A stretch of 64,000 nt of DNA, from the NCBI RefSeq assembly GCF_010093385.1, contig NZ_PDWV01000015.1, forward strand, positions 1 through 64,000, read 5' to 3'. Numbering within the stretch: position 1 is the first letter of the stretch; each line of letters opens with the position of its first letter. This stretch comes from Pseudoxanthomonas mexicana (GTDB lineage: Bacteria; Pseudomonadota; Gammaproteobacteria; Xanthomonadales; Xanthomonadaceae). Of this stretch, positions 11,338-60,900 are shown one piece after another. The notes under the pieces are model-generated. The model was not told the origin of the DNA, did not search any database, and saw nothing but the letters and a program-made list of their open reading frames with translations. The position numbers and the translations under genes were made by a program.

Positions 11338-12092
11338 ACCGCGAGGCGCCGGGGCAGGATGCCGAAAGCAGCCTGATGGAGCACCTGCTGGAGCTGCGCA
11401 CGCGGCTGGTCCGCGGACTGGCGGGCACCGGGCTGATCCTGCTGGCGCTGTTGCCGTTCGTGCGCCAGCTGTACGACCACCTCGCCCGGCCGCTGATCTC
11501 CCAGCTGCCCGCCGGCCAGGCCACCCAGATGATCGCCAGCGACCCGACCTCGGGCTTCTTCGCGCCGATCAAGCTGGCGTTCTTCCTCGCCCTCTTCCTG
11601 TCGTCGCCCTGGCTGCTGTTCCAGGCCTGGAGCTTCGTCGCGCCCGGCCTGTACAGGCACGAGAAGCGGTTGGCCATGCCGCTGCTGGTCTCGGCGATCG
11701 TGCTGTTCTACGCCGGCTGCGCGTTCGCCTACTTCCTGGTGCTGCCCAGCGTCTTCCACGCGCTGACCGTGTTCACGCCGGACATCGTGACGCTGGCGCC
11801 GGACCCGGCGAAGTACCTGGATTTCGTGATGGTGATCTTCCTGGCCTTCGGTGTCAGCTTCGAGCTGCCGGTGGCACTGGTGATCATGGTGCTGCTGGGC
11901 TGGGTGACCCCGCAGCAGCTGCGCGAAGGCCGCGGCTACGCCATCGTCGGCGTGTTCGTGGTGGCCGCGCTGATCACCCCGCCGGACGTGGTCTCGCAGC
12001 TGATGCTCGCCATCCCGATGTGCCTGCTGTACGAGCTGGGCATCGTGGCGGCAGGATGGTTGAAGCCGCGCCCGCGCCCCGACAGCGCCTGA
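11334..12092 (+). CDS. tatC: Sec-independent translocase subunit TatC
   Basis: TatC is the six-helix membrane core that recognises twin-arginine signals. The 252-aa product has the family signature [15 protein letters not shown] near residue 13, the [20 protein letters not shown] segment, the [12 protein letters not shown] loop and [17 protein letters not shown]. Last gene of the tatABC operon; the next gene is convergent about 90 bases away. Confidence 0.97.
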
Positions 12093-12180
12093 GCGCACTG
12101 CCGCAGCGGGAACTATCGCTTGATTCCCTGCCGGTTCCGCAGGCGTACCGTGGCCCGCCCTGTCGCGCGATACAGACGGC

Positions 12181-38581: not shown

Positions 38582-39178
38582 ATGGGCGACTGGGAATTCT
38601 TGTACGAAATGAACGATCGCGGCTACAGCCCGGAAGAAATTGCCGATGCCGCCAGCTGTGGTGTCGCGCCATGGGAATGGAAGTACCTCAGCAAGGAATG
38701 GATCGACTCACAGCTGGAAGGAGCACCCGAGGCTGCCTACGATGTCGAGCCTTATGAGCCTTTTCAGAGCAGAGAGGGATTCCCCTATAGCGTTGTGGAG
38801 CAAACAGAGATATTCCACGACCTCGTGGATTGCGCGCAGCGCCATCTCGAGAATACCGGTCGTTACCTGCAGGTTTGGGGAGAGCTGGGAGAGATATATG
38901 CCGAGATCAGATTCGGCCTACGTCGACACGCAACGCACCGCGCCGGTTCCGATGGGACTATTCAGGGCAAGCTTGTCGAGGTGAAGACGATTTCGCCCGA
39001 GAAGTCCAGCGATCGCGTGCTCGTAAAGAGTCAAGGCGACTTCGAGCAGTTGCTGATCATCCACATCGATCGGCAGTTTCAGTTTCAGGGAAAGCTGTTC
39101 GACCGAGCTGAGCTGAAAGGGGCTGAGGGAAAGTTCCTCCGTGGACGCCTGGAACCCGGCATCGGCGAGAGCGTGTAA
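38582..39178 (+). CDS. unknown protein, possible PD-(D/E)XK nuclease
   Basis: A 198-aa protein with a GGAGA ribosome-binding site. The N-terminal ~50 residues form an HTH-like region (RGYSPEEIADAASCGVAPWEW). The C-terminal half reads ELGEIYAEIRFG, then HRAGSDGTIQGKLVEVKTIS around residues ~119-140, matching a nuclease core with Glu, Asp and ExK, followed by VLVKSQGDFEQLLIIHI. This is the second nuclease-like protein in the cluster. Function unassigned. Confidence 0.5.
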   Translation: MGDWEFLYEMNDRGYSPEEIADAASCGVAPWEWKYLSKEWIDSQLEGAPEAAYDVEPYEPFQSREGFPYSVVEQTEIFHDLVDCAQRHLENTGRYLQVWGELGEIYAEIRFGLRRHATHRAGSDGTIQGKLVEVKTISPEKSSDRVLVKSQGDFEQLLIIHIDRQFQFQGKLFDRAELKGAEGKFLRGRLEPGIGESV

Positions 39179-39867: not shown

Positions 39868-41304
39868 ATGGGACAAGCCAAGCGCAGGGGCAATTTCGAG
39901 CATCGCAGACGCGAGGCCATCAAGCGCAACAAGAGGCTCGCCATCGCAAGTCTGGGTGAAGGCGACACTCAGCGACAATCCGAGCTTAGACTTGCGTTAG
40001 ACCTCTTTCTCAAAGGCCTAGGCCCGGAGCAGTGGGCAGAGAGAAGGGCCGGCGTTATTGAAATGCTTAACGGCGCAGTGGCCGATATGGCGAACAGACC
40101 GTTTGTGCCCCTGCGCGTTCAGAAGGATGAGATTGCCTGGTATCTGCTGCTCGCAGAGCTCGCGCTGGATGATCCCTTCAGCCAAGAGATCAGCCAGGCA
40201 TCGCGCATCCTTCCCATCCTTACGGCCATTGGCATGCGGCTAGGCCACTTGCCCCGCGTTACCGGCATGGACGAGAAGGTCAATGATGCTCTCACTGACT
40301 ATAGATCTGACCCCGACGGAACCTTGTTCGAGATCCTCGTCGGCTTGTCCTACGCCGCAGCAGGCTGGGACGTAGAGTTCCTGGCATCCACTCCACTGGA
40401 AAAGAAGCCGGATCTTCGCGTGACCAAGGGTGGCCGGGTGCTGTTCGTCGAATGCAAGCGATTGCAACGTAGCTCGGAGTACGGCGAGAAGGAGAGACAG
40501 AAATTCCTGGAGATGTGGGATGGCGTGGCGGAGCTTCTGATCGAGAACCGTCAGTGGCTCTGGCTAAGAGCTGACTTCAGGACTGAAGTAAGTTCCCTGC
40601 CGAAGTCGTTCTTGACAGACCTATTGGCCTCGGCACTGCCAGCTCCCGCTGGGGAGACCACGATCTACGACGGTCCAGAAGCGAAGATCGACGTCCGCCA
40701 TATTGACCAAAGCAAGGTCGCCGAGCACATGGCAAAGTACTCTGTGAAGCTCAACTCGCCGGCATTGACGACGCTACTGGGGGGCGATTGGGCACCGCTC
40801 GACTCTGCCGTGAGCGTTGCGCATATGATCCAACCGGAATTCGTGAAGGACAGCCCTATCCCCTTTCTCGGCGCCTACGCCGATAAGATAGGCTGGGCGT
40901 CGGGTATCACGCGCAAGTTCAGCTCGGCTCGATCCATCGCAGGCAAGGCGCGCGACATACGCAAGCGCGTCGCGGACGCAGTCGCCCAGGTGCCGGCGGA
41001 CGTGGAGTCGGTCGTTCACGTTGCCTACGAAACCATGGATGGCCCTGAGGTCGAGCGACACAGGTTCGAGCGGGTGACCGAGACGTTGAAGCGATTCACT
41101 ACGGACAAGCGCCTCGTCAGTGTCAGGGTGCACATGATGCAAGCCCACCAAGTCCTGGACGGCATGTGGGATTTCGAGGAGACGGTACTTCCTTGGAACC
41201 GTATTCCAGATCATACCCACGATATTCCGGTACAGGTTGTTGTTGAGCCCGACGCAACAATGCGCGATGGAAGCCATTGGGAGCCGGGTTCGTTCTCGCG
41301 ATAG
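39868..41304 (+). CDS. large nuclease-like protein, PD-(D/E)XK core
   Basis: A 478-aa protein with a strong AAGGAGCGG ribosome-binding site. It opens with a basic segment MGQAKRRGNFEHRRREAIKR. Residues ~150-200 contain TLFEILVGLSYAAAGWDVEF, then KKPDLRV and RVLFVECKRL, an almost ideal PD-(D/E)XK core (Glu on the first helix, Asp, then ExK). The C-terminal ~250 residues are unrecognised. It stands between two defence-like operons, 151 bases before the ParB-like gene, and might belong to either or work alone. Confidence 0.6.
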   Translation: MGQAKRRGNFEHRRREAIKRNKRLAIASLGEGDTQRQSELRLALDLFLKGLGPEQWAERRAGVIEMLNGAVADMANRPFVPLRVQKDEIAWYLLLAELALDDPFSQEISQASRILPILTAIGMRLGHLPRVTGMDEKVNDALTDYRSDPDGTLFEILVGLSYAAAGWDVEFLASTPLEKKPDLRVTKGGRVLFVECKRLQRSSEYGEKERQKFLEMWDGVAELLIENRQWLWLRADFRTEVSSLPKSFLTDLLASALPAPAGETTIYDGPEAKIDVRHIDQSKVAEHMAKYSVKLNSPALTTLLGGDWAPLDSAVSVAHMIQPEFVKDSPIPFLGAYADKIGWASGITRKFSSARSIAGKARDIRKRVADAVAQVPADVESVVHVAYETMDGPEVERHRFERVTETLKRFTTDKRLVSVRVHMMQAHQVLDGMWDFEETVLPWNRIPDHTHDIPVQVVVEPDATMRDGSHWEPGSFSR

Positions 41305-41455
41305 TCGTTTACTGAGCTCGCCGCCAGTACGAACATGGATCTATTGAGATCTGCAGGTGATTGGCAGCAGTTCTTGTCGTTTGTGATCGGCTCGTCGTAC
41401 TGAAGGCGAGCTTCAACCGATACAACGGCGCCGGGGTGGCGCCAAGGGGAATGGA

Positions 41456-42787
41456 ATGAGCACTACGTTCAACGTTGTCGATCCTGAGCTTCGCCATGAA
41501 CAGATTGAGCTTCGTGTCGCCGAAGCCAGAGCCCACGGCAAGCTCCGTAAAGAGTACAAGTTCCGAAATGGGGAGGAGCTGCCGCTCATCTCCCTTCCGA
41601 TTGGCACGCCTATCTACCGACTTGAGAACTATCGCACCCGCGATAAGCAGTTGAGCCTGGAGGCGCAAACAGCGGTGCCGCCGGGCTTCTTCAACCCTAA
41701 AAGACGCGAAGACAGCTCAGTCCAGGCTAAGCAGCACCAGATCCTGCTTGATCAGGCGAAGACGGGAAGTGGCGAGACGATCAAGCCCATCTACGAAGAG
41801 CTTGAACGCGTTAGGCTGCAGACCGATGAGATCATCGTGTCCGCTGATGGCGTCGTGGTGAATGGGAACCGTCGCCTTGCAGCCATGCGAGAGCTTCATC
41901 GAGCTGACCCGAGTGCGTTCTCGGGATTCGCGCACGTCAACTGCATGGTACTGCCCAAGTCGGCCACGGTCGATGAGATCCGCAGCCTTGAGATTGCGCT
42001 GCAAATGCAGCCTGAAACGAAGCTTCCGTATGAGTGGACCGCTTTGGGGCGCGCCGTTAGGGACTTGCGCGACGCCAACGTCCCTGAACAGGAGATCATG
42101 AATGAGATGAATCGAAGCAAGTCGGAAATTCAACGCGCGGTCAAGATGGTTGAGGCCGCCGAGGCGTATCTGGACTCGTGGCTCGACAAGCCTCAGAACT
42201 TCGATTTACTGAAAGACACCGAGCAAGCGTTCATCCAGATTGCGACGCGAAACTTAGGCAAGCAGGACAATGTAGCCCAGCGAGAGGTCACACGACAGTT
42301 CGACTTCTTCCTTGTGGAGCATCGGACGCTTCTTTCTGACAGTGCTTATACGCTGATCAACACAATTGAAACGAACCCGGATGCATTTCTCACCGCCGTG
42401 GCGGTGGAGTTCGGAGTTACGCTGGAGGCAGCCGCTCCGGCGAGTGAGCCAAAGCCGGAGATCAACTTTGATGATGACGTCGGCGCCGGCGTTGACTATG
42501 GCCCATTGGTCGACCTACTCATTGCTGCGCGTGAGGATGACGAAGGTCGTGAACGCACCGTCCGCACTATTGAAGAGGTTTGTGATGTTGTAGCCGAGCA
42601 AGGCAAGAATAGAGACAAGGCCGCACTCAAGTTCGCGGTCAAAGCGGAGAAGAATCTCACACTTGTCGACTTGACCACGGCAGCACCATCTACTTACTAC
42701 GAGATCAATGCCGCGCTTGAGCGGTGTATTGAGAGAATTGAAAAACTGCAGCATCAGCTGCAGGAGCTAAATGAGTCGAGGGCCTAA
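41456..42787 (+). CDS. ParB/sulfiredoxin-fold protein of a putative defence operon
   Basis: A 443-aa protein with an AAGGGGA ribosome-binding site. Its N-terminal half has the ParB-like fold: GTPIYRLENYRTRD, IIVSADGVVVNGNRRLAAMREL around residues ~125-147 (the G-x-R-R-x-x-A box that binds nucleotide in ParB/CTPase proteins), and the helical DLRDANVPEQEIMNEMNRSKSEIQR region after it that resembles the ParB helix-turn-helix. The C-terminal 130 residues are acidic and unrecognised. It is not beside a parA gene, so a chromosome-partition role is unlikely. First gene of the ParB-SNF2-DUF3883 operon; the helicase GTG follows its stop by two bases. Confidence 0.75.
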   Translation: MSTTFNVVDPELRHEQIELRVAEARAHGKLRKEYKFRNGEELPLISLPIGTPIYRLENYRTRDKQLSLEAQTAVPPGFFNPKRREDSSVQAKQHQILLDQAKTGSGETIKPIYEELERVRLQTDEIIVSADGVVVNGNRRLAAMRELHRADPSAFSGFAHVNCMVLPKSATVDEIRSLEIALQMQPETKLPYEWTALGRAVRDLRDANVPEQEIMNEMNRSKSEIQRAVKMVEAAEAYLDSWLDKPQNFDLLKDTEQAFIQIATRNLGKQDNVAQREVTRQFDFFLVEHRTLLSDSAYTLINTIETNPDAFLTAVAVEFGVTLEAAAPASEPKPEINFDDDVGAGVDYGPLVDLLIAAREDDEGRERTVRTIEEVCDVVAEQGKNRDKAALKFAVKAEKNLTLVDLTTAAPSTYYEINAALERCIERIEKLQHQLQELNESRA

Positions 42788-42789
42788 CA

Positions 42790-44691
42790 GTGCCCTCGCC
42801 AACCCTCACGCTTTCGTATGTCGCGGATGCGAGCCGCGGACTGTTCACGCGCTCCGATGACGTGCCGATGCTTGCTTGGACTCGGTTGACGAGCTCGGCT
42901 CGCGACATTGATGACAGCGCGATTGCGCGGCGTAACGTGCTTGAGGTGTCTTGGCCCACTGCTTTGACCCTGATCCGCACGCTGGCACCTTTGCAACGCT
43001 CGTTAGGCTTCCTGTTTGAAACAGACGCGTCTTCGGACGCGCGTGTGAAGCAGTTCATGGTGGACTATCGGGCTGTCCGGGATGCTGGGACTCGGTCCCA
43101 GATCATTGCGCCTGAAGATATCCAACCTGCCCTGACGGCCATGGGATGGAATGAGGAGGATCACGGATTAAAGCCATACCAGGCGGCCAACCTCTCCGCA
43201 CTGCTGTCTCTGCGCAACGGCGCAAACTTCTCGGTACCCGGCGCAGGAAAAACCACAGTAACGTTTGCACTTCACCTGCTGAGCCGAGACCAGGCTGATC
43301 GTATTCTCGTGGCAGCCCCGAAGAACGCGTTTCCTGCCTGGGAGGAGATCATCGACGAGTGCCTGCTGCCAACAGCGTCAGGTGAGCTTCGTGCACCTTT
43401 TCAGACCTTGACCGGTGGTGAGGCGCGCATCCGCGAAAGCCTGCAGGCTGGGGGAAAGCGCTTCCTGATCTCCTATGATCAGTTGGTGAGAGTCGATTCT
43501 CTCATTGGCCACTACCTTGCCACCCGAGCCGTTCATCTGGTCCTTGATGAGTCGCACCGCATGAAGGCCGGCTATACCTCGCTGCGCGGCGCAAGCTTGC
43601 TCAGGATGGGACACCTGGCGATCCGCAGAGACATCCTGACGGGCACACCCATGCCCCAGTCCAGTAGCGACATGCAGTCTCAACTGGACTTCCTGTGGCC
43701 AGGCGCCGGGCTGGGATTCCGCATCAGTCGCGGGGAGGAGCCTCGCAAGGTGATGGACGGCTTGTACGTCCGCACGACCAAGTCGGACCTGCAGCTGCCG
43801 GAACGCAAGCGTGTCTTTGTGCCGGTCACGATTTCAGATGCACATTGTGCGTTCTACGCGGTGCTTAGAGACGATCTGAGGGCACAAGCAAGCAAGCTAT
43901 ACCGCGGCACGTCGGCCAAGGCCCTCATTGCTACGCGCCGGTCCGTGGTTCGCCTCTTGCAGGCAGCGGTCAATCCCGCGCTCGTCGCCCAGAGCCTGGA
44001 TGAGGTCGCCAGTCCCGAGAAATCTGGCCTGCTGCGCGCGGTTCTCCAAGAAGGGGCCACCGAAAGGGTTCGGCAGAGCGCTGCACTGGCGGAGCGCCTC
44101 GTTGCCCAAGGGAAGAAGGTGTTGCTCTGGACCATCTTCACCTCCACGGTCCATCAGCTGCGGGATCTCTTGTCTCATCTCAACCCGGCGCTTATCTATG
44201 GCCAGATTGATATGGGCGATGAAGACGATGACGAAAGCAGGCAAGGCCAACTCCGCCGCTTCAAGACGGACCCTAACTGCCATGTGATGATCGCGAACCC
44301 TGCCGCGGCGGCTGAGGGCATCAGCCTTCACCTGCAGTGTCATGATGCGATCTATGTGGATCGCAGCTACAACGCCACACACTTCCTGCAGTCAATTGAT
44401 CGAATTCATCGACTTGGCTTGCCCGACGAAGTAGACACGACGATCTACGTCATGCAGAACCGCCTGCCCTCCGGGATAGGCTCAATCGACGTCTCGGTAA
44501 GTCGGCGGCTTGGCCAGAAGATTCGCAATATGGAGAAGCTGCTGGACGATCGTGATCTACACGAGTTGGCCTTGGATGAGGAGAACGCCCCACTGTCTAT
44601 TGCCGATGAACTCGACGCGCGCGACATTGATGACATCGTTGCTGAAATCGAGAACCGTGCACCCCAGCTTTCGGATGAGGAGGCTGTGTGA
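42790..44691 (+). CDS. SNF2-type DEAD/DEAH helicase
   Basis: A 633-aa superfamily 2 helicase/translocase. Motif I is SVPGAGKTTVTFAL near residue 150, motif II LVLDESHRMK near 252 (DESH), motif III ILTGTPMPQS near 282, motif V ANPAAAAEGISLHL near 500 and motif VI FLQSIDRIHRLGLP near 535. The start is a GTG two bases after the ParB-like stop. The first 130 residues have no clear domain. It overlaps the DUF3883 gene by four bases (GTGA), so the two are made together. Probably moves along DNA to power a nuclease; that is inference. Confidence 0.85.
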   Translation: MPSPTLTLSYVADASRGLFTRSDDVPMLAWTRLTSSARDIDDSAIARRNVLEVSWPTALTLIRTLAPLQRSLGFLFETDASSDARVKQFMVDYRAVRDAGTRSQIIAPEDIQPALTAMGWNEEDHGLKPYQAANLSALLSLRNGANFSVPGAGKTTVTFALHLLSRDQADRILVAAPKNAFPAWEEIIDECLLPTASGELRAPFQTLTGGEARIRESLQAGGKRFLISYDQLVRVDSLIGHYLATRAVHLVLDESHRMKAGYTSLRGASLLRMGHLAIRRDILTGTPMPQSSSDMQSQLDFLWPGAGLGFRISRGEEPRKVMDGLYVRTTKSDLQLPERKRVFVPVTISDAHCAFYAVLRDDLRAQASKLYRGTSAKALIATRRSVVRLLQAAVNPALVAQSLDEVASPEKSGLLRAVLQEGATERVRQSAALAERLVAQGKKVLLWTIFTSTVHQLRDLLSHLNPALIYGQIDMGDEDDDESRQGQLRRFKTDPNCHVMIANPAAAAEGISLHLQCHDAIYVDRSYNATHFLQSIDRIHRLGLPDEVDTTIYVMQNRLPSGIGSIDVSVSRRLGQKIRNMEKLLDDRDLHELALDEENAPLSIADELDARDIDDIVAEIENRAPQLSDEEAV

Positions 44692-45503
44692 CCCCTGTCC
44701 TAGCACTCAAACCCTCCGCGATCAGCGGATTGGTTCGACTGCGAGCCCGGCTTCGGGATGACCCCGCGATGTCGGTGGATAAAGCGTGCAAGTTGCTGGA
44801 AGCCACCTACGATGGCGCGGGACTGGACCTGGAAGGTGCAATGCAGCTGCACGAGCTCATCGAGCCCACCCTCATCGACCGACAGGTCTTATATCGCCAG
44901 GTCATCGGGCTGACGGCCCGCACAGCTGCACCGACTTGGCTTCCACTGCTGTGCTCGGGGCGAGAGGCAATCCGCGCTGTGGATACGGATGTGGCCACCT
45001 GCTTCGAGCGAGCCGGAGCATTCGACCCCATCCCAGACCAATGCGTCATCGACTGGTGGGATGAGCTCGCCAGCCTGGGATATGCGGACGATGACCTTGC
45101 AAAGATGTCTTCAGGCCGGGAGGCTGAACGGCTTTCGCTTCGCCATGAGCAGGAGCGCCTAGCGAACGTCCCGGACGCTCCGGAGGTTGTCTGGAAGTCA
45201 CTTGACTCCAACGTCGCAGGATATGACATCCAGTCCTGGCAACTTCTGGGAGGATCGTGGTCGCCCAGGTATATTGAGGTCAAGGGATCCAAGCGTAGTC
45301 CCCCCATCCTGTTTCTGACACGAAATGAATGGAACACGGCGGTTCGGCACGGGGAGGCCTATGCGTTCCATGTATGGGATTTGCACCATCTACGTCTTGC
45401 AGAAGTCTCCGTCGAGCACATGGCCACTCACGTACCAACTGATAGCGGTAACGGAAAGTGGGAGCAGGTTCGAGTCCAGCTAGACGAAGTCGCTTTTACA
45501 TAG
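44688..45503 (+). CDS. DUF3883-domain protein, predicted nuclease
   Basis: A 271-aa protein with a C-terminal DUF3883 domain: GREAERLSLRHEQERL near residue 143, VAGYDIQSWQL, PRYIEVKGS near 193 and LTRNEWNTAVRHGEAYAFHVWDL. DUF3883 is a PD-(D/E)XK-related domain often fused to or beside helicases in restriction systems; Glu 146, Asp in GYDI and ExK in IEVK fit the active site. The N-terminal 130 residues are unrecognised. Starts with a GTG inside the helicase stop. Likely the cleaving component of the system. Confidence 0.75.
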   Translation: MTPVLALKPSAISGLVRLRARLRDDPAMSVDKACKLLEATYDGAGLDLEGAMQLHELIEPTLIDRQVLYRQVIGLTARTAAPTWLPLLCSGREAIRAVDTDVATCFERAGAFDPIPDQCVIDWWDELASLGYADDDLAKMSSGREAERLSLRHEQERLANVPDAPEVVWKSLDSNVAGYDIQSWQLLGGSWSPRYIEVKGSKRSPPILFLTRNEWNTAVRHGEAYAFHVWDLHHLRLAEVSVEHMATHVPTDSGNGKWEQVRVQLDEVAFT

Positions 45504-45516
45504 GACTTGTTCGCTG

Positions 45517-45532
45517 GGGGCCTGATGGCCCC
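45517..45532 (+). terminator. GC hairpin after the ParB-SNF2-DUF3883 operon
   Basis: GGGGCC (45517-45522), TGAT, GGCCCC (45527-45532). The downstream T-run is missing, so it may be a weak terminator or an RNA-stabilising hairpin that separates the operon from the methyltransferase promoter. Confidence 0.35.
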
Positions 45533-45548
45533 GGCCCGGAGGTCGGGC

Positions 45549-45576
45549 TTGCGCATCCGGACCGGAGATCTATAAT
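45549..45576 (+). promoter_or_regulatory. consensus promoter of the DNA methyltransferase gene
   Basis: TTGCGC (45549-45554), a 16-base spacer and a perfect TATAAT (45571-45576). The start would be near 45583, about 20 bases before the ATG. A separate methyltransferase promoter would let protective methylation be made independently of the effectors. Confidence 0.6.
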
Positions 45577-45602
45577 TCTCGAAGATCCAGCGAGACACCC
45601 CT

Positions 45603-46556
45603 ATGCTGTACCGACGAGCACCTTCGGCCTGGGCCCATATCAACGCCAACGGCGGGCGCGCTGCGCTGCTGAATGGCGACTGCAAGGCGCTGCTAGCTGC
45701 CATCCCCGACAACTCGGTGTCACTTGCCATTACGTCCCCGCCCTACTGCATGGGCAAGGAGTATGAGCCTGGCAACACGATCGAAGACTTCATCGCCGCG
45801 CACAAGATCGTATTGCCGGAGATTCTTCGCGTCGTCCGTCCTGGCGGCAGCATTTGCTGGCAGGTGGGCTATCACGTTGACAACAACAATGTCATGCCGC
45901 TGGACTACCTCATCTTCGATGCAATGAGGCAGCTGCCCGAGCCGCCGATCCTTCGCAATCGTATTGCGTGGACGTTCGGTCATGGCTTTCATTGCGAGCG
46001 CCGTTTCAGCGGCAGGCATGAAACAGTGTTGTGGTTCACGAAGGGCGACAACTACACATTCAATCTGGATGCTGTGCGTGTTCCCCAGAAGTATCCGGGC
46101 AAGACCGCGAACAAGGGTCCGCTCAAGGGGTTGCCCAGTGGGAATCCGCTTGGCAAGAACCCTGAAGATGTCTGGGACATTCCCAACGTCAAGGCCAACC
46201 ATGTGGAGAAACTCGACCATCCTTGTCAGTTTCCCGTTGCACTGGCACAACGACTCGTTGCCGCGCTGACAAATCCTGGCGATATCGTACTGGACCCCTA
46301 TGCCGGCGTGGCCAGTAGCGGCGTGGCCTCCCTGCTGGAGGGGCGTCGCTTTATTGGTTCCGAGTTGGAAGAATACTACGCGTCCCTGGGAACCGAGCGC
46401 TTGGAACAAACAGTGCGCGGCGATGTGCGTGTGCGCGCAGATAAGCCGGTGCATGTGCCGAACCCGGACAGCAAAGTGGCTCGACGCCCTGAGCATTTCC
46501 GAAACTTTGACAGCCCCCCGCAACATTCGGGCGCTGAATCGGCAGGCACTCTGTAA
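45603..46556 (+). CDS. beta-class DNA methyltransferase (N4-cytosine or N6-adenine)
   Basis: A 317-aa site-specific methyltransferase. The catalytic motif IV SPPYCMGKEY is near residue 45 and the SAM-binding motif I DPYAGVASSGVA near 231, i.e. the circularly permuted beta order. HETVLWFTKGDNY and LDHPCQFPVALAQRLVAAL are further beta-MTase landmarks. SPPY occurs in both N4-cytosine and N6-adenine enzymes, so the base is not decided. Target site is unknown. It has its own promoter and no restriction enzyme directly beside it except the ParB/SNF2/DUF3883 operon upstream, which it probably protects against. Confidence 0.85.
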   Translation: MLYRRAPSAWAHINANGGRAALLNGDCKALLAAIPDNSVSLAITSPPYCMGKEYEPGNTIEDFIAAHKIVLPEILRVVRPGGSICWQVGYHVDNNNVMPLDYLIFDAMRQLPEPPILRNRIAWTFGHGFHCERRFSGRHETVLWFTKGDNYTFNLDAVRVPQKYPGKTANKGPLKGLPSGNPLGKNPEDVWDIPNVKANHVEKLDHPCQFPVALAQRLVAALTNPGDIVLDPYAGVASSGVASLLEGRRFIGSELEEYYASLGTERLEQTVRGDVRVRADKPVHVPNPDSKVARRPEHFRNFDSPPQHSGAESAGTL

Positions 46557-47356: not shown

Positions 47357-47377
47357 GCTGATCAGCAACTGATCAGC
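47357..47377 (+). repeat. 9-bp perfect inverted repeat overlapping the tRNA 5' end
   Basis: GCTGATCAG (47357-47365), loop CAA, CTGATCAGC (47369-47377). Its last two bases are the first two of the mature tRNA, so the hairpin competes with the acceptor stem or marks the 5' processing site. Confidence 0.7.
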
Positions 47378-47465
47378 CCCTGTAGCTCAATGGGTAGAGC
47401 AGCGGTCTTATAACCCGTCAGCGCCAGATAAGCGGCTTGTGCCGGTTCGAGTCCGGCCAGGGGCA
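47376..47465 (+). tRNA. tRNA-like gene, anticodon UAU (Ile), long variable arm
   Basis: The acceptor stem GCCCCTG/CAGGGGC (47376-47382 with 47458-47464), D arm GCTC...GAGC, anticodon loop CTTATAA giving UAU, and T arm GCCGG-TTCGAGT-CCGGC are all present, followed by discriminator A and an encoded CCA (47466-47468). UAU would read the AUA isoleucine codon, normally left to the lysidine-modified CAU tRNA. The variable region is ~22 bases (47423-47444), class II length, which is wrong for isoleucine. The anticodon stem has a T/C mismatch next to the loop and a G/T pair. It may be a mobile-element tRNA, a degenerating tRNA or a specialised decoy. Confidence 0.7.
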
Positions 47466-47658
47466 CCACCGCCTGTGCATGAACAGTCGCACGGAAGATC
47501 CTTCGCCCGACGTAGGTGCCTGCCTCATCCCAAATTTGGGGGCATTACATGGCAGCAAGCGAGTTCATGCGCTAGAAATCAACCACTTAGTCATGCGCCA
47601 GAGCATCGTTTGCTCAATTGGCGCCTTTACGCATGACGTAGGCATATTCTTTCTCACC

Positions 47659-51498: not shown

Positions 51499-51637
51499 CT
51501 TCCGGAATCGCTAACAAAAGCTTTGGCGGGCTTTGTAGCGATTCTGGACTGCGCGGCCGCCGCCTGTCAACGGGGTGAGCCCTCCTGCCCGGATCTTTCC
51601 TTTACCTGTGCCGCCATGCGGCACTAAGGATGATCCG

Positions 51638-52390
51638 ATGACCCTGTTTACCCCTGACTTGGGCGTATCGCGCCCAAGCTTCCCTGTGGTCCTGCCCCGC
51701 TGGCCGGCCCCCGATCTTCACGATGCCCTGATCACCTGGTGGTGGCCTCCCGCGGGGGAGGTGCGAGCACGCAACGTGCTCAGCCGTGGCGCCATGCGGG
51801 CCATCTACCGCTTCAGCAGCTGGAAACTGGCTCGAAGCGTTCACTTCGAATCTGCCCTTGAGGAGCAAGTCGCGCTGGCGCTGGATGCCTGTCCCACCGT
51901 GGGCGCCTACGCCGAGCAGCCAGTGCTCATGGAGTATGCGACGCCTTACGGCGGCTGGGCTCGCCACTATCCGGACTTCGCGGTGCTTCACCGCGGATCG
52001 CGAGCCTTTATTGAAGTGAAATTCGCGCGTGACGTGGATGCGTCGGTTCTGAAGCGCACTCAGCACCTGAGCACGCTGTTGGCGCCCCTGGGCATCGTGT
52101 ATCGGCTGGTGACCGAGGTCGACCTGCCTTCTCCTGCTCGTCTGGCCAATGCCTGGTCCCTGTTGTCTCGTGGACGTACTGCCATCACGGACCTCCAGGC
52201 CTTGCTGGTCCATCAACAGGCGCTAGACGGCGTATCGCTGGCTGATCTGGGCTGGGGACGAGTCGCTAGTGCACGGTCACTGGCTCGCCAGATCATGGAG
52301 GGTCGCATCAGTGTGGACCTGTCCCGGCCGATCGGCTTGGACACCATGGCCTACACCTCCGAACAAGAGGAGGGCTGGCTGTGGGCATAG
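51638..52390 (+). CDS. tnsA: TnsA-like transposon endonuclease
   Basis: TnsA cuts the 5' ends of a Tn7-like element, making transposition cut-and-paste. The 250-aa protein has the restriction-enzyme-like catalytic set: VHFESALEEQVALAL (Glu), WARHYPDFAVLHRGS (Asp) and RAFIEVKFARDV (ExK). Length and order fit TnsA. The ATG at 51638 is preferred over earlier in-frame starts. The reading frame overlaps tnsB by ten bases, starting the tnsABC-tniQ operon. Confidence 0.85.
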   Translation: MTLFTPDLGVSRPSFPVVLPRWPAPDLHDALITWWWPPAGEVRARNVLSRGAMRAIYRFSSWKLARSVHFESALEEQVALALDACPTVGAYAEQPVLMEYATPYGGWARHYPDFAVLHRGSRAFIEVKFARDVDASVLKRTQHLSTLLAPLGIVYRLVTEVDLPSPARLANAWSLLSRGRTAITDLQALLVHQQALDGVSLADLGWGRVASARSLARQIMEGRISVDLSRPIGLDTMAYTSEQEEGWLWA

Positions 52391-54411
52391 GACTCTTCAA
52401 GGTCGGCCAGAGGTTCGATCTGGATGGCAAGCGACAACACATCACCCGACTGCTCGATAAGGAGCGCATCGAGTTCGAAGATGCACAGTCGGCCCGTCGG
52501 CAGGAGCTGACGCTGACTGAAGCGCTGGAGCTTTACAAAAGCGGCAACTTCGTTTTTCGGCCCATCATTGATATCGAAGCGGACAAGCGGGCGCGCTCGC
52601 GGGTCATGAGCAACACCCTGCTCGCCTCTGTGCCACCCCTGCTGCGGGATCTGGCCAAGCTGCGACTGCACTTTGTTACAAAGCTTGCCCACTTCCCGAC
52701 GACGCGAGCTCGTCTGACGCCGCTGGTGCAAGCCTTGTGGGAAAAGCTCAAGCCAGCAGACCTTGCACTGATGCCTGAGTGTCCGCATGCCAGCAGTGTG
52801 GCTCGCTGGATGAAGCAGTACCGCGACGCGGAGAACAACATTGTCGCCCTGCTCGACCAGCATGCACTGAAGGGCCATCGCGATCGCATCCCGCAGAAGG
52901 TGCTGGACCTCATGGAGGACTGCGTTCGGGATGGCTATCTCACCCCTCATCGCAGAAACATCACCTCTGTACTAAGCGACATCAATGGTCTGATCGATGA
53001 CACCAATCTGATGCTAACCCCATCAGAGCAACTGTCTCCGATCAGCTACGAGCAGCTTCGCAAGTACATCAGCAAGCTTCCCGCCTATGAGGTCTATGCG
53101 GCCCGCTACGGCGAGCAAGCGGCGGACATGAAGTTTCGCAACACGGGCAAAGGGGCGTCCGCCGCCCTCCCCTTGCAGCGCGCTGAGATGGATCACTGCA
53201 GACTCGATCTGTTCGTGGTCGACATGGAGACGGGCCTGCCCTTGGGTCGCCCCTGGCTGACCGTGATCATCGATGCGTGCACCCGCATGATCTTAGGCTT
53301 TTCTCTGAGCTTCGATGCGCCCAGCAGCCTGACGGTGATGCGAGCGCTGCGGCATGCGGTGCTACCGAAGACAGAACTGGACGATGTCACCCAGCCGTGG
53401 CCTACCTGGGGGATCATGCGTACCTTGGTGGTGGACAACGGTGTTGAGTTCCACGGCGCCAGCCTGGACTACGCTGCCGGACAGTTCGGCATCACGATTC
53501 AGACCTGTCCTCGGCGCCAGCCTTGGTTCAAGGGTAGGATCGAGCGGTTCTTCCGCACACTTCAGACCGATCTGATCTCTCTGATCCCGGGGCGAACGTT
53601 CTCCTCCATCATCGAACGCGGCGATTACGACAGCTCCAAGCACGCCGCGATCACCTTAGAGACGCTGAATCGGGTGATCAACCTCTGGATTGCGGATATC
53701 TATCACCAGAGCACCCACTCCTCCATCAGACAAACACCCGCCCAGAAGTGGGAAAGCCTGATCGATAAGGTAGACCGCCACCTTCCCGACTCGGCCCAGT
53801 GGGTGGATGCGGCATTCGGAAAGCCGGAGACGCGCGTTGCTGGCCACGAAGGCATCTTGAAGGATTCGCTTTACTACAACTGCGCCGAGCTCGGCGTCAT
53901 GCGGCAACAACTGGGCGAAAGGATCACGGTCGACATCATTACCAACGATGAGGACGTGGGCTATCTGTATGTCGTACATCCCGAGACTGGCGACTACATC
54001 AAGGTGCCGGCGATTGATGAGGACTACGCGAGCGGCCTGACCCGCTGGCAACACACCAAGTGCAAGGAGTACGCCAGGTACCTGTCGGAGAAGGGCGAGG
54101 ATCGCGTCAGCCTGCGCGACGCGAAGCTGAAGATCGTCGAGATGATTGAAGAGGACATGGTGGTGAATCGCCGCAAGAGCCGCGCCGCGCAAAGCCGAGC
54201 CCGCAGCATGCGGAAGCAGAACTCTTCCAAGCCCGCTACCACTTCCGCACGGCTAACCTCGTCAGCTAAGCGAAAAGGCGGGGCCTCAGTGCGGCCTGCG
54301 GAACAGGACGCCATGCACTCGCCTCGCAACCCTTCAGTCGCTCGTGATGACGATCTTCTCGACCTCACCGTCACCGTTGCCGTGCCCTACACACAGGAGG
54401 CCGCCGCATGA
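52381..54411 (+). CDS. tnsB: TnsB/TniA DDE transposase
   Basis: TnsB binds the element's ends and joins the 3' ends to target DNA. The 676-aa protein begins with a GTG inside tnsA. The DDE core is visible: RLDLFVVDMETGLPLG near residue 276 (first Asp), RTLVVDNGVEFHGAS near 351 (second Asp) and FKGRIERFFRTLQTDL near 386 (Glu). Upstream helical DNA-binding domains span residues ~1-250, and a C-terminal beta-barrel-like region plus a Lys/Arg-rich tail follow. Overlaps tnsC by four bases. Confidence 0.92.
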   Translation: MGIGLFKVGQRFDLDGKRQHITRLLDKERIEFEDAQSARRQELTLTEALELYKSGNFVFRPIIDIEADKRARSRVMSNTLLASVPPLLRDLAKLRLHFVTKLAHFPTTRARLTPLVQALWEKLKPADLALMPECPHASSVARWMKQYRDAENNIVALLDQHALKGHRDRIPQKVLDLMEDCVRDGYLTPHRRNITSVLSDINGLIDDTNLMLTPSEQLSPISYEQLRKYISKLPAYEVYAARYGEQAADMKFRNTGKGASAALPLQRAEMDHCRLDLFVVDMETGLPLGRPWLTVIIDACTRMILGFSLSFDAPSSLTVMRALRHAVLPKTELDDVTQPWPTWGIMRTLVVDNGVEFHGASLDYAAGQFGITIQTCPRRQPWFKGRIERFFRTLQTDLISLIPGRTFSSIIERGDYDSSKHAAITLETLNRVINLWIADIYHQSTHSSIRQTPAQKWESLIDKVDRHLPDSAQWVDAAFGKPETRVAGHEGILKDSLYYNCAELGVMRQQLGERITVDIITNDEDVGYLYVVHPETGDYIKVPAIDEDYASGLTRWQHTKCKEYARYLSEKGEDRVSLRDAKLKIVEMIEEDMVVNRRKSRAAQSRARSMRKQNSSKPATTSARLTSSAKRKGGASVRPAEQDAMHSPRNPSVARDDDLLDLTVTVAVPYTQEAAA

Positions 54412-55502
54412 ACCACGTTCTTAATGTTCCGCCACAGCCCACCACTGACCTCACGCTCCACCTGAGCAAGATGGCTATGTTGAGGGTCGAGACACCGATA
54501 TTCGTCGAATCACACGACATCTTGGGTCGAGTGCTGAAAGAGGTTGGCACTACATGTACACCCGCCTTCAAGCATTTTGTCGGTCATTCAAAAGCTGGCA
54601 AGTCCTACATATTCCGGCAATTCGAGATGAAGTTCCCAGCCGAACGAACTCCAACCGGAATACGCAAGGAGGTGATCTACGTCCAGGTGCCTTCGCAGGG
54701 CACCATCACCGGCGTCGTTGAAGCGTTGCTTGAAGCACTCGGAGACCCCAAGTACGCCGAGGGGCCAGTCAACAAGAAGACGGCACGACTCAAGAAGCTG
54801 CTCGTCAAGGTCGGCTGCAAGATGGTGATTCTTGACGAGTTCCAGGAACTCGTGGACAAGAACCAGAACAGGTCGCTCAGTCTCACCACTAACTGGCTCA
54901 AAGAGCTGGCTGAGATGGGCACCTTGAGCGTCGTATGTGTCGGCTTGCCAAGCTCCAGTCGGATTGTTCGGCATTGGGAACAACTGCGCACTCGCTTCAG
55001 CCGCACCATCGAAATCCCCGTACACGACTGGACCGATGCGCGATCCAGGAAGGTCTTCCGCTCGGTGCTTCGCGGCGTCTACAGCTCCATGGCACCTTTC
55101 AGTGTCCCAGATCTGACTTCAGAAGAGCTCTCGCTTCGCTTTTTCATTGCATGCGGCGGTCGCCTCGGTTTGCTGTGGCGCATCCTCGACCAAGCAGTGA
55201 AAGATGCAATCTGGGAGAACCGGACCGAGATCTCGCTGGCGCACCTCGACGCGGCTTTCCAAGAGGCCATCTGGTATGCGGGCGAAATCCCCATGGAAGG
55301 CGGACCGTTCTATGGCTCCCTTTCTCCTGACCAGCAGCAGCGGCTATGCGGCGTCGCCATGTACTTGGCGCAAAGGCCACCCAAAGATCAGGAGGACGAA
55401 GAGCTGCATCTGGGATCCATGCAGAGGGATAAGGAAGAGGCCCCAGCCAAACCCTTGAGTAAGAAGCAGCTTAAGGCCGAGTTGAATCGGGCTCTGACAT
55501 GA
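54408..55502 (+). CDS. tnsC: TnsC/TniB AAA+ transposition regulator
   Basis: TnsC is the ATPase that couples target selection to TnsAB. The 364-aa protein shows a Walker A GHSKAGKSYIF at residues 59-66, a Walker B KMVILDEFQELVDK near 143 and sensor-like VVCVGLPSSSRIV. Lengths and motifs match TniB/TnsC of Tn5053- and Tn7-like elements. It overlaps tnsB and tniQ by four bases each. Confidence 0.88.
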   Translation: MNHVLNVPPQPTTDLTLHLSKMAMLRVETPIFVESHDILGRVLKEVGTTCTPAFKHFVGHSKAGKSYIFRQFEMKFPAERTPTGIRKEVIYVQVPSQGTITGVVEALLEALGDPKYAEGPVNKKTARLKKLLVKVGCKMVILDEFQELVDKNQNRSLSLTTNWLKELAEMGTLSVVCVGLPSSSRIVRHWEQLRTRFSRTIEIPVHDWTDARSRKVFRSVLRGVYSSMAPFSVPDLTSEELSLRFFIACGGRLGLLWRILDQAVKDAIWENRTEISLAHLDAAFQEAIWYAGEIPMEGGPFYGSLSPDQQQRLCGVAMYLAQRPPKDQEDEELHLGSMQRDKEEAPAKPLSKKQLKAELNRALT

Positions 55503-56992
55503 GCTTGCTCTCGGAGATTCAGGCAACCGATCCGGTTCGCCCCCTAGTGGTAACGCCGCTTCCCGATCCCCGGGAGGCGGCTATCGGCTACGCCCTAAGG
55601 TTGTGCGATGCAAATTCATACGACTCACCCACTATGTTTCTGGGCGGCATAGGCCTGGACCTCACACGTCAGGCGCTGGGAGGAACGGCGCCAGTCCTCT
55701 CCGCTTTGACAGTCAAGGATGACTCCACGTATGAGCGGATCGCTATCCGCAAGGCAGAGAATCACTCCTACTACCTGAAGGGGCAGCGTCTATCGGGGCG
55801 ACATGTGAGCTTCCACCATCACAAGATCTGCCCGATTTGTGTACACGCCGATGGCATCCATGACGCAAGCTGGCACCTCTCGCTGCTTACCCATTGCCCT
55901 GTTCATCGAGCGCCTCTGGTCAACGAGTGCCTACGGTGTGGCGCAGGCTATCGCATGAACCGGCCCGGCACGGATCGTTGCAAGTGCGGAGCACCGGTTT
56001 CCGAACACCCATCCGCGCCGCCGTGCAGCATTGAGGTAGCCACCCTCTTCGCCGCCATGAGAGCGAAGCTGTTCAATGACACAGGTATCGCCATAGCGCC
56101 ACGCGAGCTTTCCGCGTTTGAGGATGCGAGTCTCAATGAGTTCCTGAATCTCATCAATGCTATGCACAAGTTCGTAGTGCAGCACTGCCGAAGCCTGGGC
56201 ACGGACAAGCTGCTGACTCGTGAGCAGAGGGCCATGCATGTCGTCGCCACCGCGCTGCTCCTGCTAGAGCAAGGGGTTGACGTACTTCATGGAGCATTGA
56301 GGGGCAGACCTGTTGCGCCAGATGAGTACGTGCCTGCAGCAGCCTTCCGTTGGTTCAAGGTGCATCATGCGGGACTGATCAAGGCGGCTGGACTTTCGTT
56401 CTTGGCGGGCAGGATTGATGCATTTCTCGCCGATCGACGGAAGTTCAGACCCAAAAGTGAGACCCAACGTGGGCCGAGATCCCCAGAGGCGGCGCTGCGG
56501 CGGGAGGAAGCACTGCGAGACTCAGAGGCCTTCAACAGAAAGTGGGTGCTAGCCGACAAAGCAGGCTCTCTGACAGATTGTGACGACGACTATGTCAGAT
56601 GGGCAGCGCGCCTGAAGCTCTTCACTTGGGCGAAGGGCATTGGCAATCGCATGGTCGTGGCACGAGAGGAGATCTTGCGGCTGCGGCTCTCTGCCTCCAT
56701 CGGATTGCAGCCCGAGGAGGCTTCCGCTCTCGCGGACATCCCCGTCCAACTGTTCAATCGCCTGGCGCGATCTAGGATACATGTCGCGCAGTTCATCCCT
56801 TCGACGGGGGGGCCGCACTCAAAGGAGGATGTACTACGCCTTAAAGGTTCTATCGATGACGCACGTCACGTCGTCATTGAGGGGCTTGGGCAGACCGTCC
56901 AGCAGTTCCTCAATCGAACCCCGAAGTCGATGCTGAACTCCACAAAACCTTTAGTGGAGACAATGGCCAAGCATAGACGCAGCACTCAGTAG
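55499..56992 (+). CDS. tniQ: TniQ/TnsD-like target-selection protein
   Basis: TniQ proteins pick the insertion target. The 497-aa length is near that of Tn7 TnsD. The zinc-binding TniQ N-terminal domain is visible at residues ~105-165: KICPICVHADGIHDASWHLS, LTHCPVHRAPLVNECLRCG and RCKCGAPV. The C-terminal ~300 residues are probably the DNA-target-binding part. Which sequence it recognises cannot be told from the window. Its stop lies 25 bases from the convergent minus-strand gene, so the element's end is not between them. Confidence 0.85.
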   Translation: MSLLSEIQATDPVRPLVVTPLPDPREAAIGYALRLCDANSYDSPTMFLGGIGLDLTRQALGGTAPVLSALTVKDDSTYERIAIRKAENHSYYLKGQRLSGRHVSFHHHKICPICVHADGIHDASWHLSLLTHCPVHRAPLVNECLRCGAGYRMNRPGTDRCKCGAPVSEHPSAPPCSIEVATLFAAMRAKLFNDTGIAIAPRELSAFEDASLNEFLNLINAMHKFVVQHCRSLGTDKLLTREQRAMHVVATALLLLEQGVDVLHGALRGRPVAPDEYVPAAAFRWFKVHHAGLIKAAGLSFLAGRIDAFLADRRKFRPKSETQRGPRSPEAALRREEALRDSEAFNRKWVLADKAGSLTDCDDDYVRWAARLKLFTWAKGIGNRMVVAREEILRLRLSASIGLQPEEASALADIPVQLFNRLARSRIHVAQFIPSTGGPHSKEDVLRLKGSIDDARHVVIEGLGQTVQQFLNRTPKSMLNSTKPLVETMAKHRRSTQ

Positions 56993-57945: not shown

Positions 57946-60900
57946 CTATTTATTGCATGGGCAGGGATCAGCGGCGTAGCGATCATTCAATGCCTTTCCT
58001 CCTTTGATAGCGTCCGCCGCATCTGACTCGTTGCCGATGCGCGACAGTATTCTCCGAACCCCTCGGAGCTTGCCACCCATCGTCATGCCGAATGACAGGA
58101 CTTCTCCAGCCTCGGCGCCATCTGCGCCAAGGAGCGCACCGCCGACTACGGCGTATGCAGAGTCTCTGGGCTGATGGTCGATAGCGGTCATAATTCCAGT
58201 GACACCATCGTAGGTTGTCATTCCACCGTTTGCGATAACCAAGCCTCCTGCGCCGACGACGAGAGGATTCAGAGCCGCTGCGCCCATAACTGAGGCGTCG
58301 GCACCCACTCCCATCTCTGCGATCCCGCCAGCTACGTCGATGACACCCACGGCCAAGCCAAGATAGTCGATGCACAAGCCCGTTGGGTCAGTATTCCACA
58401 GAGGGTTTCCTAGCGCGTACGCATAAGAATTCAATCCGCCACCGATGCCCACCGGATCACTCTGCAGGTACCGCCCGAGGCGGGCATCATAGTAGCGCTG
58501 GTTGTTGTACCAAAGATCGCTTTCTTGATCGTAGTACTGCCCGGGCAAACCGATATTCAAGCCACCAATCGCATCCAAGGTAACCCGTCTGTCGAACGGA
58601 TAGTTGGCGGCTCGCCAAACCACGGCTCTTGCCGTGTTGGTGACTACTTCGGGCCTGCCCAAAGCATCGTTGTGAACATAGTAAACGCTGGCGGCACGAA
58701 CCAGGCCGATAAGCTGGCCATCAAACCAAAGGTAGTTTGACCAAGCGCCGCTGTTGTCCGACCTTTCGGCCAACAAGTTTCCTTGGGCACCGTAGACAAA
58801 TCGCGACCCTTGACCATTCGCCGCAACTTTCCTGACGCGCCTACTCAATGCGTCGTTGGTATAGGTACTAACCCCGCCTACGAGGCTAACATTCGCGTAG
58901 TTTGGCTGCGTGAAGCTTACCGCTTGACCACGGCTAATGCTCGCCAATCCATTGAAAGCATCATATGCATAAGCTGCACTTGAACCAGACCATGAATGAG
59001 ATGCGACATTGCCCCTTGCATCGCTCGAGTACCCGTGACTACCCATACCGGAAACCCGATTGCTCTGGGCATCGTGTTGCAGGTATTCATCAAAGTTCCA
59101 TATATGGCGAGTCTTGTTGCCATTGACATCCCAAACGAACTGCTGATTTCCTGAAGGGGATGAGAACGACGCAAGGCGGCTTTGAACGTCATACGTATAT
59201 GTCTGACTTAAGGAAGAGTCAGTTGCGCTAGCGATTCCTGAAACGCGCGCATTAGCGTCGTAACTATACGTGAGACCTTGGACTACCTGGGCCCCATAGG
59301 CAACCTGAACACCTGTAAGGCGGCCATCCTGATCGGTGCCGAGAGTTCGAGTCAATCCATTACCAAGCGACATCTCCGCGATGCCGCCAAATGGCTCATA
59401 CAGACTTCCAGCGACGATATTCGTAATCGTGCCACCCACGTTGACTGTCATCGTCGTGAGTTTGTCAGAGGCATATCCGTAGCCCACCGCAATGCCACTC
59501 GGATATGAAATAGCATTCAACCGGCCGAACTGATCATATTGGTAGCCCGTCCAGAACTCGCTACCTCCGGCAGAAGTGATATCGCGCTGCACGGCCATAC
59601 GCCCGTCACTGAGGTATCCGAATATCGACGATGTCACCTCCACGCCGTTGGAAAACGACGCCACCCCACAGAGAAGTCCTTTCCCTGAGTTACACCAATC
59701 ATAGCTAAGCGTCCTACTCTCGGCGCCCCCAGACGCCTGAACAAGCCGCCCGATTGAATCGTAGGAGTACGAGAGCGAACTCCCATCTGCGCGCGCCATT
59801 ACACTCACGCGGCCGACGGCATCTCTCTGGTATGACGTGGCCCCCGTCTCTGCTGTGTATCGAGCCCACAGGCCACCAAAACCGTCATACACATAGGTCT
59901 GAACCCGGCCCAGTGGATCCGTCAGCTTGGTCAGCTTGTCGTTCTCGTTGTACTCGAACTGAATCACGCCTCCATCTGCATAGAGCGCGCTCTTCAGCCG
60001 ATTTAGCTCGTCATACGTGAAGCTCACGGCGTTGGAACCAGCAGAATTCCTGATGGTTTGTATGTTGCCATTCGGGTCATACGTGTATCGTATGTTCATG
60101 CCATAGCTTCCGCGGATGCCTCTTGGCCTGCTGAGCTCGTCGTAGTCCAACGAAGCTATCTTCTTCTGCACGTAACCCGGAATCCACTGCTCCTCCCAGA
60201 ATGGCTCCATGCACTCCTCTTCCGGAGCGCCTACCGGCCCCATGCACGTGAAGACGAATGTCTGAACTGTTTCGACGGATACGTCTTGGCTGAACTTCAG
60301 GTTGCCCGCTGAATCGTAGGTGTAGGACTGTTCTTCGTCCGTCGCAAAGTTGACCAGTGTTCCGCCCGACGCCCTTCTTGTCCTGAAAAGCCGCAGCGAA
60401 GACGTATAGTCGTAGTTGGTGGTAACTCCAGATGGCGACGTCACAGAAGCCAATGTCCCGTTCGGTCCGTACACATAAAGCGTATCCGCAGGATTGCTTC
60501 CATCCGGATATCTACGGAACCGTGTAACGCGGCCCTGAGCGTCATAGATGTAGTCGGTATGCGCGCCATTGACGCCCGTATGGCGCCCGGGGAGGCCAAG
60601 ACCATTGTGGTTACTGTAGGTCTCGATGTGTCCGAGCGAGTTTGCACGCGACGTCAGATTTCCCAAGCTATCATACGTGACCACGATGTTGTCACCGAGT
60701 CCCGCCATCGGCCCATCAACTTGTGCGGAGGCGAGCATGCCGCCTGCGAGCGCGCCACCGGATCCACCCCCGTAGTAGCTGTACGTGAAGTTGGTGGTCC
60801 TCACCTGGTTGGCAACGCCATTCGCGGAGATGTTCTTCTCCGATACGGAAGATAACGTTCCAAGCGGGTGGTAGTAGTACGTAGTTTCCAGCTGTCCGAC

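Follow-up and report, generated by a model that had tools for sequence, protein, structure and literature searches.

A ParB-SNF2-DUF3883 cassette with a DNA methyltransferase in Pseudoxanthomonas mexicana: a probable restriction-modification system with RGATCY as candidate target site

Introduction

In this study, we analysed a window of 64,000 nucleotides from Pseudoxanthomonas mexicana (assembly GCF_010093385.1, contig NZ_PDWV01000015.1, positions 1 to 64,000), which carries at 41456-46556 a cassette of four forward-strand genes for a ParB-like protein, a SNF2-family ATPase, a DUF3883 protein and a beta-class DNA methyltransferase. We consider it probable that this cassette is an ATP-dependent restriction-modification system, directed at RGATCY-like sites and located on an island. 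The genes are conserved as a set in distant bacteria, where most close relatives of the window carry a fifth gene for a BstYI/BglII-type restriction enzyme that has lost its catalytic acids, and the stretch upstream of the methyltransferases is enriched in RGATCY.

The cassette in the window

The ParB-like protein (443 amino acids (aa); 41456-42787) has a ParB N-terminal domain with the GNRR box, a helix-turn-helix (HTH) and a helical C-terminus. Its gene is separated by 2 bases from that of the SNF2-family ATPase (633 aa; 42790-44691; signature FSVPGAGKT / DESH / LQSxDRIHRLGL), which overlaps by 4 bases the gene of the DUF3883 (NOV_C) protein (271 aa; 44688-45503), a predicted PD-(D/E)xK nuclease with E147, D180, E197 and K199. 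NOV_C-type proteins are named DUF3883 in public annotation. After 99 bases follows the methyltransferase (317 aa; 45603-46556) with an ITSPPY motif. A first-pass annotation of this DNA had described four genes with this order and spacing, and open reading frame (ORF) coordinates and Pfam matches agree with it (SNF2-rel_dom 9.5e-10, Helicase_C 2.6e-5, NOV_C 2.3e-11, N6_N4_Mtase 6.8e-46); the motifs GNRRLAAMREL, GAGKT, DESH, IDRIHRLG, YIEVKGS and ITSPPY were all found.

The ParB label is below the Pfam cut-off (ddrB-ParB, 0.044), but is supported by the predicted structure (mean predicted local distance difference test (pLDDT) 92.6), for which the top 29 Foldseek matches in the Protein Data Bank (PDB) were all ParB-family chains (ParB, Noc, KorB, Spo0J). 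The predicted N-domain plus HTH supports a fold like that of the ParB CTPase clamps. As to CTP binding and sliding, the GNRR box is invariant in the cassette proteins, but their second nucleotide motif departs from ENLQR. According to PMC12839542, nicking of single-stranded DNA is a property of ParB/Srx proteins, and the ParB-like protein might itself be the nuclease or nickase, with SNF2 and DUF3883 merely assisting. We regard this as very improbable, since the model is most similar to ParB, Noc and KorB chains, with N-domain and HTH, and DUF3883 holds a complete nuclease motif.

Conservation and co-inheritance of the gene set

A search with the SNF2 protein gave 79 plasmid records, nine of which were hand-picked for inspection. 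From a scan with a SNF2 alignment, the best 80 of at least 554 SNF2 relatives, ranked by similarity, were taken as genome loci L012-L091. The alignments A1 and A2 were seeded by the window, the nine plasmid loci and locus L011, and A3 by seven of these. Seed loci match their own profiles by construction; the counts below use the 80 non-seed loci. Among these best 80, a ParB gene was found beside SNF2 in 79 and a DUF3883 gene after SNF2 in 78. ParB was missed in L046, which starts at a contig end inside the operon, and DUF3883 in L014 and L019; the contig end truncates ParB in L030, L068, L069 and L072, and SNF2 is split across two ORFs in L048. A flank of at least 1.6 kilobases (kb) before ParB and at least 1.8 kb after the last core gene was present in 61 loci (19 were dropped), and all 61 had a methyltransferase within 3 kb, with two doubtful partners (L014, 2.7 kb off on the other strand; L052, a weak match of 3e-7). 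Thus, the genes do co-occur elsewhere, in contrast to the outcome that the first-pass annotation had named as refuting its proposal of a defence system, and the conserved set can be read as restriction-modification, in support of the annotation's inference that the methyltransferase marks self DNA.

With the window as one row in each alignment and short rows dropped by length, the Walker A lysine, D-E-x-H and D-R-x-H-R of SNF2 were invariant in 80 of 80 rows, E147, D180, E197 and K199 of DUF3883 in 78 of 78, and GNRR and E179 of the ParB-like protein in 76 of 76. Pairwise distances agree among the five proteins (r 0.79-0.94, with 46 to 76 loci shared; in none of the 10 pairs did any of 500 permutations give a value as high), and the set has therefore largely been inherited together.

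The family is rare and scattered. The SNF2 protein was found in two of 150 relative genomes (E-value at most 1e-10) and in three of 397 genomes of the phylum (at most 1e-60), own genome included in both cases, and in six of 387 genomes of the class of genome G306 (at most 1e-60). Carriers belong to Pseudomonadota, Bacillota, Bacteroidota, Verrucomicrobiota, Planctomycetota, Spirochaetota, Nitrospinota, Armatimonadota, Ignavibacteriota and Thermodesulfobacteriota. A less selected sample of eight further genomes came from SNF2 profile and protein searches and was not ranked by closeness; four of them are probably the same genomes as L012, L023, L031 and L078. ParB adjoined SNF2 in all eight, and DUF3883 and a nearby methyltransferase were each found in seven; L105, the locus of this sample with neither, is a 4.4-kb contig.

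On plasmids, a ParB-like gene preceded SNF2 in all nine inspected loci, and a reverse search with the ParB protein gave five records, each with an adjoining SNF2 relative. The SNF2 protein of plasmid locus L008 has an N-terminal PLD nuclease domain (2.5e-8), and no DUF3883 match was found there by profile; this fusion fits a motor that needs some nuclease. On the Lactococcus plasmid locus L010 (417-8431), type III mod and res genes are followed by ParB-SNF2 in one run, and the ParB-SNF2 pair may serve other restriction-modification types too.

A fifth gene encodes a dead BstYI/BglII-fold protein

A BglII-like gene of about 153 aa was found in 52 of the 61 loci with enough flank, and in many of the 80 loci it stands directly before ParB. 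The nine of the 61 without it are L012, L013, L014, L019, L052, L062, L073, L078 and L082, and the window is without it too. The protein is Endonuc-BglII in Pfam (8.7e-8), and its profile matches BstYI, BamHI and OkrAI in the PDB. For its structural model (pLDDT 95), all 16 Foldseek matches with an E-value of at most 0.001 were BstYI, BamHI, OkrAI or BglII, with BstYI at the top.

Catalytic roles are held by D119 and E128 in BstYI, and by D94, E111 and E113 in BamHI. We placed these residues by profile and sequence alignments in 65 copies, excluding two ORFs of at least 230 aa (L058 and L090). The column of BstYI E128/BamHI E111 holds Q 29, C 28, H 5, A 1, G 1 and S 1 times, and that of BstYI D119 holds T 33, F 23, S 5, A 2, N 1 and P 1 times. 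Hence, both catalytic acids are absent in all 65 copies. All 65 retain Q as the third residue, and likewise T, G, N, R, D and K near it. In this enzyme group the two acids hold the metal, and the lysine is replaced by E in BamHI and by Q in BglII, as given in the review PMC4081073. The excluded ORF of L090 (5493-6551; 352 aa) has matches to the methyltransferase as well as to the dead BglII-like protein, which reflects either a gene fusion or a reading error.

The 387 class genomes served as a control, in which this profile gave six matches, two cassettes and four partial ones. The latter four are stand-alone homologues of 203-250 aa, three from one genus, and keep the glutamate in four of four (EIQ or EVQ). 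Each directly follows a methyltransferase of the cassette family, and no ParB, SNF2 or DUF3883 match was found in the 10-16 kb examined around them. A match over all 203 residues (5.9e-87) identifies one of the four as a BstYI orthologue. The Pfam name would suggest an active type II restriction enzyme; for the 153-aa protein this was ruled out by the residue counts together with the stand-alone comparison. Since the acids are lost in 65 of 65 copies and the DUF3883 residues are kept in 78 of 78, the dead enzyme is likely the reader and DUF3883 likely the nuclease of the system, and a motor is the natural reading of SNF2.

Methyltransferases and the candidate target site RGATCY

The class of the methyltransferase varies among loci (short beta, long beta or C5), with the two beta classes distantly related to each other. 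The first-pass annotation had described a methyltransferase with its own promoter after the other three genes. This order is that of the window, but in most close relatives the methyltransferase heads the operon, followed by the gene of the dead enzyme and then ParB, and other classes can take its place. TSPPY or SSPPY, a signature of N4-cytosine methyltransferases, was found in 55 of 58 beta methyltransferases of 283-420 aa, which suggests that these enzymes make N4-methylcytosine; by its ITSPPY motif, the window's enzyme would be of the N4-cytosine type as well. The best PDB sequence match, M.RsrI (6e-48), is an adenine methyltransferase, which is at odds with this reading.

The methyltransferases connect the cassette to BstYI. 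The enzyme next to the BstYI orthologue shares 68-70% identity with those of L015 and L020, 50% with that of the window and 47-59% with the other five compared. In a quick tree, the four stand-alone enzymes group with 30 cassette enzymes (support 98). BglII cuts at AGATCT, and RGATCY is the BstYI site.

For 74 cassette methyltransferases, we analysed the 100 bases in front of the gene, with the expectation from random windows of the same loci. RGATCY was present in 24 of the 74, where 4.9 are expected (3.8 from upstream regions of other genes), and it ranked first by p-value among 32 R/Y palindromes in each of the three methyltransferase classes: 12 of 57 for short beta (4.2 expected), 6 of 9 for long beta (0.35) and 6 of 8 for C5 (0.38). 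Weighting by 28 clusters at 70% identity gave 14.9 versus 1.7, and the neighbouring 100-base stretches carried the site in 3 of 74 and 2 of 75. Protein fold, methyltransferase kinship and promoter site thus concur, because RGATCY is the BstYI site. RGATCY is the candidate for the site methylated by the cassette, and would also serve in autoregulation of the methyltransferase.

In the window, the methyltransferase gene is preceded by a promoter-like TTGCGC-16-TATAAT (45549-45576, forward strand; TTGCGC at 45549-45554, TATAAT at 45571-45576). A candidate target and autoregulation site, AGATCT (45566-45571), overlaps the -10 box by 1 base, and AGATCC (45583-45588) follows 17 bases past it; an AGATCT pair with 17-base spacing is also present in L012 and L019, and a pair at 26 in L013. 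The promoter had already been proposed in the first-pass annotation. A consensus promoter scan listed no promoter in this upstream stretch, which we attribute to the weak first hexamer (3/6); in L012, the nearest relative, the same two hexamers again stand 16 bases apart, so the element is more than chance. Upstream of the window's ParB gene, GGATCT and AGATCT stand ten bases apart (41337-41352) and form another possible RGATCY control site; no RGATCY was found upstream of the ParB gene in L019.

The variety of methyltransferases has a second possible explanation. ParB-SNF2-DUF3883 could be an auxiliary defence unit that accompanies different restriction-modification systems but makes no use of their mark, acting for instance as a second-line nuclease on phages that have evaded restriction. 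Not only the kind but also the place of the methyltransferase varies; on plasmids, ParB-SNF2 lies beside type III mod and res (L010), Sau3AI/MutH and C5 genes (L008) or C5 genes with Vsr (L004 and L005); and the dead reader is often missing outside the near family. We consider this explanation unlikely, as a methyltransferase accompanies the core in 61 of 61 loci (two of them doubtful), its distances agree with those of SNF2 (r 0.84, 54 loci), and RGATCY stands upstream of beta and C5 methyltransferases alike, as if the mark must fit the rest of the system.

The clade of the window

In a quick SNF2 tree, supported by the Shimodaira-Hasegawa-like approximate likelihood ratio test only, the window, L012, L013, L014 and L019 form one clade (99), which is sister to 33 rows; 32 of these carry the dead enzyme, and the remaining one (L030) is truncated by the end of its contig. 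As the sister rows carry the gene, its loss in the window clade is the simplest account. In three of the four clade relatives, an orthologue of the window's methyltransferase follows directly (74, 61 and 56% identity); L012 and L013 show the full order ParB-SNF2-DUF3883-methyltransferase, and L019 shows it without DUF3883. In the methyltransferase tree, the enzymes of the clade and of L062, another cassette without the dead enzyme, stand apart from the rest (99), with L019 and L062 on long branches. Potentially, the clade swapped methyltransferase and reader for a methyltransferase line without a reader. Locus L014 further encodes at 10866-12632 (reverse strand) a protein with a DndB match just under the Pfam cut-off (7.9e-6); next to it lies a methyltransferase of a second kind.

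A dead enzyme encoded elsewhere in the window's own genome was considered as well, but no copy was found there by a search that was strong in three of five other genomes. This absence, together with a clade devoid of the gene and the lack of DUF3883 in L014 and L019, might point to a decaying remnant, in which the methyltransferase has become an orphan regulator and the rest is being lost. This is quite improbable for the window copy, because its four ORFs are all intact, their motifs are conserved and their spacing is tight, and because the gene order is kept in L012 and L013, and in L019 except for DUF3883.

Proposed mechanism

Restriction-modification by the cassette would proceed as follows. 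The methyltransferase would mark the cell's own RGATCY-like sites, and in most close relatives unmarked sites in incoming DNA would be read by the dead BstYI/BglII-fold protein; in the window clade, reading would probably be done by the methyltransferase itself or by the ParB-like protein. The ParB-like clamp would load at the recognised site, the SNF2 ATPase would move or remodel the DNA, and DUF3883 would cut it, with phage defence as the presumed outcome. The ParB-like protein may in this way gate the helicase-nuclease, as the first-pass annotation had proposed. Through RGATCY in its promoter, expression of the methyltransferase would be controlled by the state of its own target. The specific version of this model, in which a dead type II enzyme loads the ParB clamp and SNF2 motor and so directs DUF3883 to unmethylated RGATCY, with the window clade as a derived form read by methyltransferase or ParB, would be a new type of restriction-modification; we propose it tentatively, at slightly less than even chances. 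Our confidence in it was lowered a little because just three of the eight less selected genomes carry the dead enzyme.

Several observations weigh against this model. The 80 loci were chosen as the most similar to the window's SNF2, and the dead enzyme occurs most often close to the window's family; besides its low count in the less selected genomes, it was found in only one of nine plasmid loci (L002, from Paracoccus, which was also the single match of the L015 protein among 72,556 plasmid records at an E-value of at most 1e-3). The whole clade of the window, L012, L013, L014 and L019 is without it. L014 and L019 are without DUF3883 as well, which means that some parts are dispensable or that these copies are in decay. 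No RGATCY stands in the 100 bases upstream in 50 of the 74 cassettes, in three of three further cassettes and in four of four stand-alone systems, and two coding stretches are rich in it too (before DUF3883 in 15 of 79; at +600 to +700 of the methyltransferase in 11 of 75). The deep separate branch of the window-clade methyltransferases means that their site could differ. Finally, the matches of the ParB-like model in the PDB have modest E-values, the best being 2.0e-3 at probability 1.00, with none reaching 0.001.

Comparison with known systems

In the broad sense of a methyltransferase linked to a nuclease, the cassette reads, by its sequence, as a restriction-modification system. It resembles BstYI/BglII type II systems in its methyltransferase family (68-70% for two cassette enzymes, about 50% for the window), the fold of the dead enzyme and the candidate site. 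In contrast to these systems, its BstYI-fold protein is without both acids, or absent as in the window, and ParB, SNF2 and DUF3883 are additional. No active PD...(D/E)x(K/E/Q) restriction enzyme (REase) of the BstYI/BglII fold stands beside the methyltransferase, and the window's own genome has no such gene. In type I, III and ISP systems, ATP-driven DNA movement joins recognition and cutting; a similar link would exist here, but separate SNF2, ParB and DUF3883 proteins replace HsdR or Res.

DISARM is composed of a SNF2-like helicase, a nuclease and a methyltransferase, all of which have a counterpart in the cassette. However, the window's SNF2 protein scores 33 bits against a DrmD cut-off of 610. 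The PADLOC 2.0.0 scan of the window covered eight ORFs at 36.6-46.6 kb, with the methyltransferase result taken from the 25 of 59 families listed. In these eight ORFs, the SNF2 helicase core alone touches the DrmA model (7e-6) and neither DrmB nor DrmC was found; there is a helicase-core likeness to ZorD, with ZorA and ZorB not among the matches listed, and neither are PglZ and BrxC of BREX. Membership in DISARM, Zorya, Dpd, Hma or BREX was rejected, as the similarity is that of the helicase core alone. SNF2, DUF3883 and methyltransferase match generic or partial PADLOC models, the best value for the ParB proteins of the window, L015 and L062 was 0.0062, and the dead reader of L015 gave no match. 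Thus, the combination corresponds to none of the known systems compared here; such a match would have refuted the proposal of the first-pass annotation.

SNF2 fused to DUF3883 has been described in restriction-modification operons, where DUF3883 was named a novel REase domain (PMC3710099, partial text). Those systems share SNF2 and DUF3883 with the cassette, but the two are fused and accompanied by a HEPN-AAA protein, and the available part of that paper describes no ParB-SNF2-DUF3883 set. A literature search in open-access papers yielded no description of the ParB-SNF2-DUF3883-methyltransferase set, and none was found in the available parts of PMC4260502, PMC6098607, PMC7337904, PMC8011034 and PMC12839542. 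We regard the set as a variant of restriction-modification, with a fair chance of being a separate type.

Island setting and neighbouring genes

At 36 kb, the guanine-cytosine content drops from about 0.71 to 0.59, and values of 0.54-0.61 continue up to the end of the window; a Tn7-like set (TnsA-like, integrase-core TnsB, TniB/TnsC and TniQ) lies in a row at 51575-56992 (forward strand). On these grounds the cassette seems to be on an island, which fits its scattered occurrence. The apparent island spans about 36000-64000, with its right end beyond the window, and the left flank has strong matches in all 13 genus genomes searched, own included. A tRNA-Ile(tat) (47376-47468) lies within the low-GC stretch, and a 1486-aa RHS-repeat protein is encoded at 57949-62406 (reverse strand).

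Upstream of the cassette, a 198-aa protein (38582-39178, forward strand) matches DUF6998 just under the Pfam cut-off (1.5e-5) and has a nuclease-like LVEVKT stretch. The 478-aa protein encoded at 39868-41304 (forward strand) has a PD...ECKR stretch, PDLRVTKGGRVLFVECKR, and resembles another PD-(D/E)xK nuclease, with no Pfam or PADLOC match. It was considered as a further gene of the system and dropped, as tblastn gave no significant match in the clade relatives L012, L013, L014 and L019.

Implications

The cassette is present in many phyla, yet no PADLOC 2.0.0 protein model fits the tested ParB or reader proteins. RGATCY offers a named candidate site, and each protein has separate catalytic or binding sites to mutate. 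If the proposed mechanism is true, ParB-type proteins, known from the partition of chromosomes and plasmids, would be joined to DNA restriction, and the fifth protein would be a clear case of a restriction enzyme without scissors that is retained as a reader. The active BstYI-type enzyme, the dead reader with a motor and the motor without a reader would then form a natural series for the origin of motor-driven restriction.

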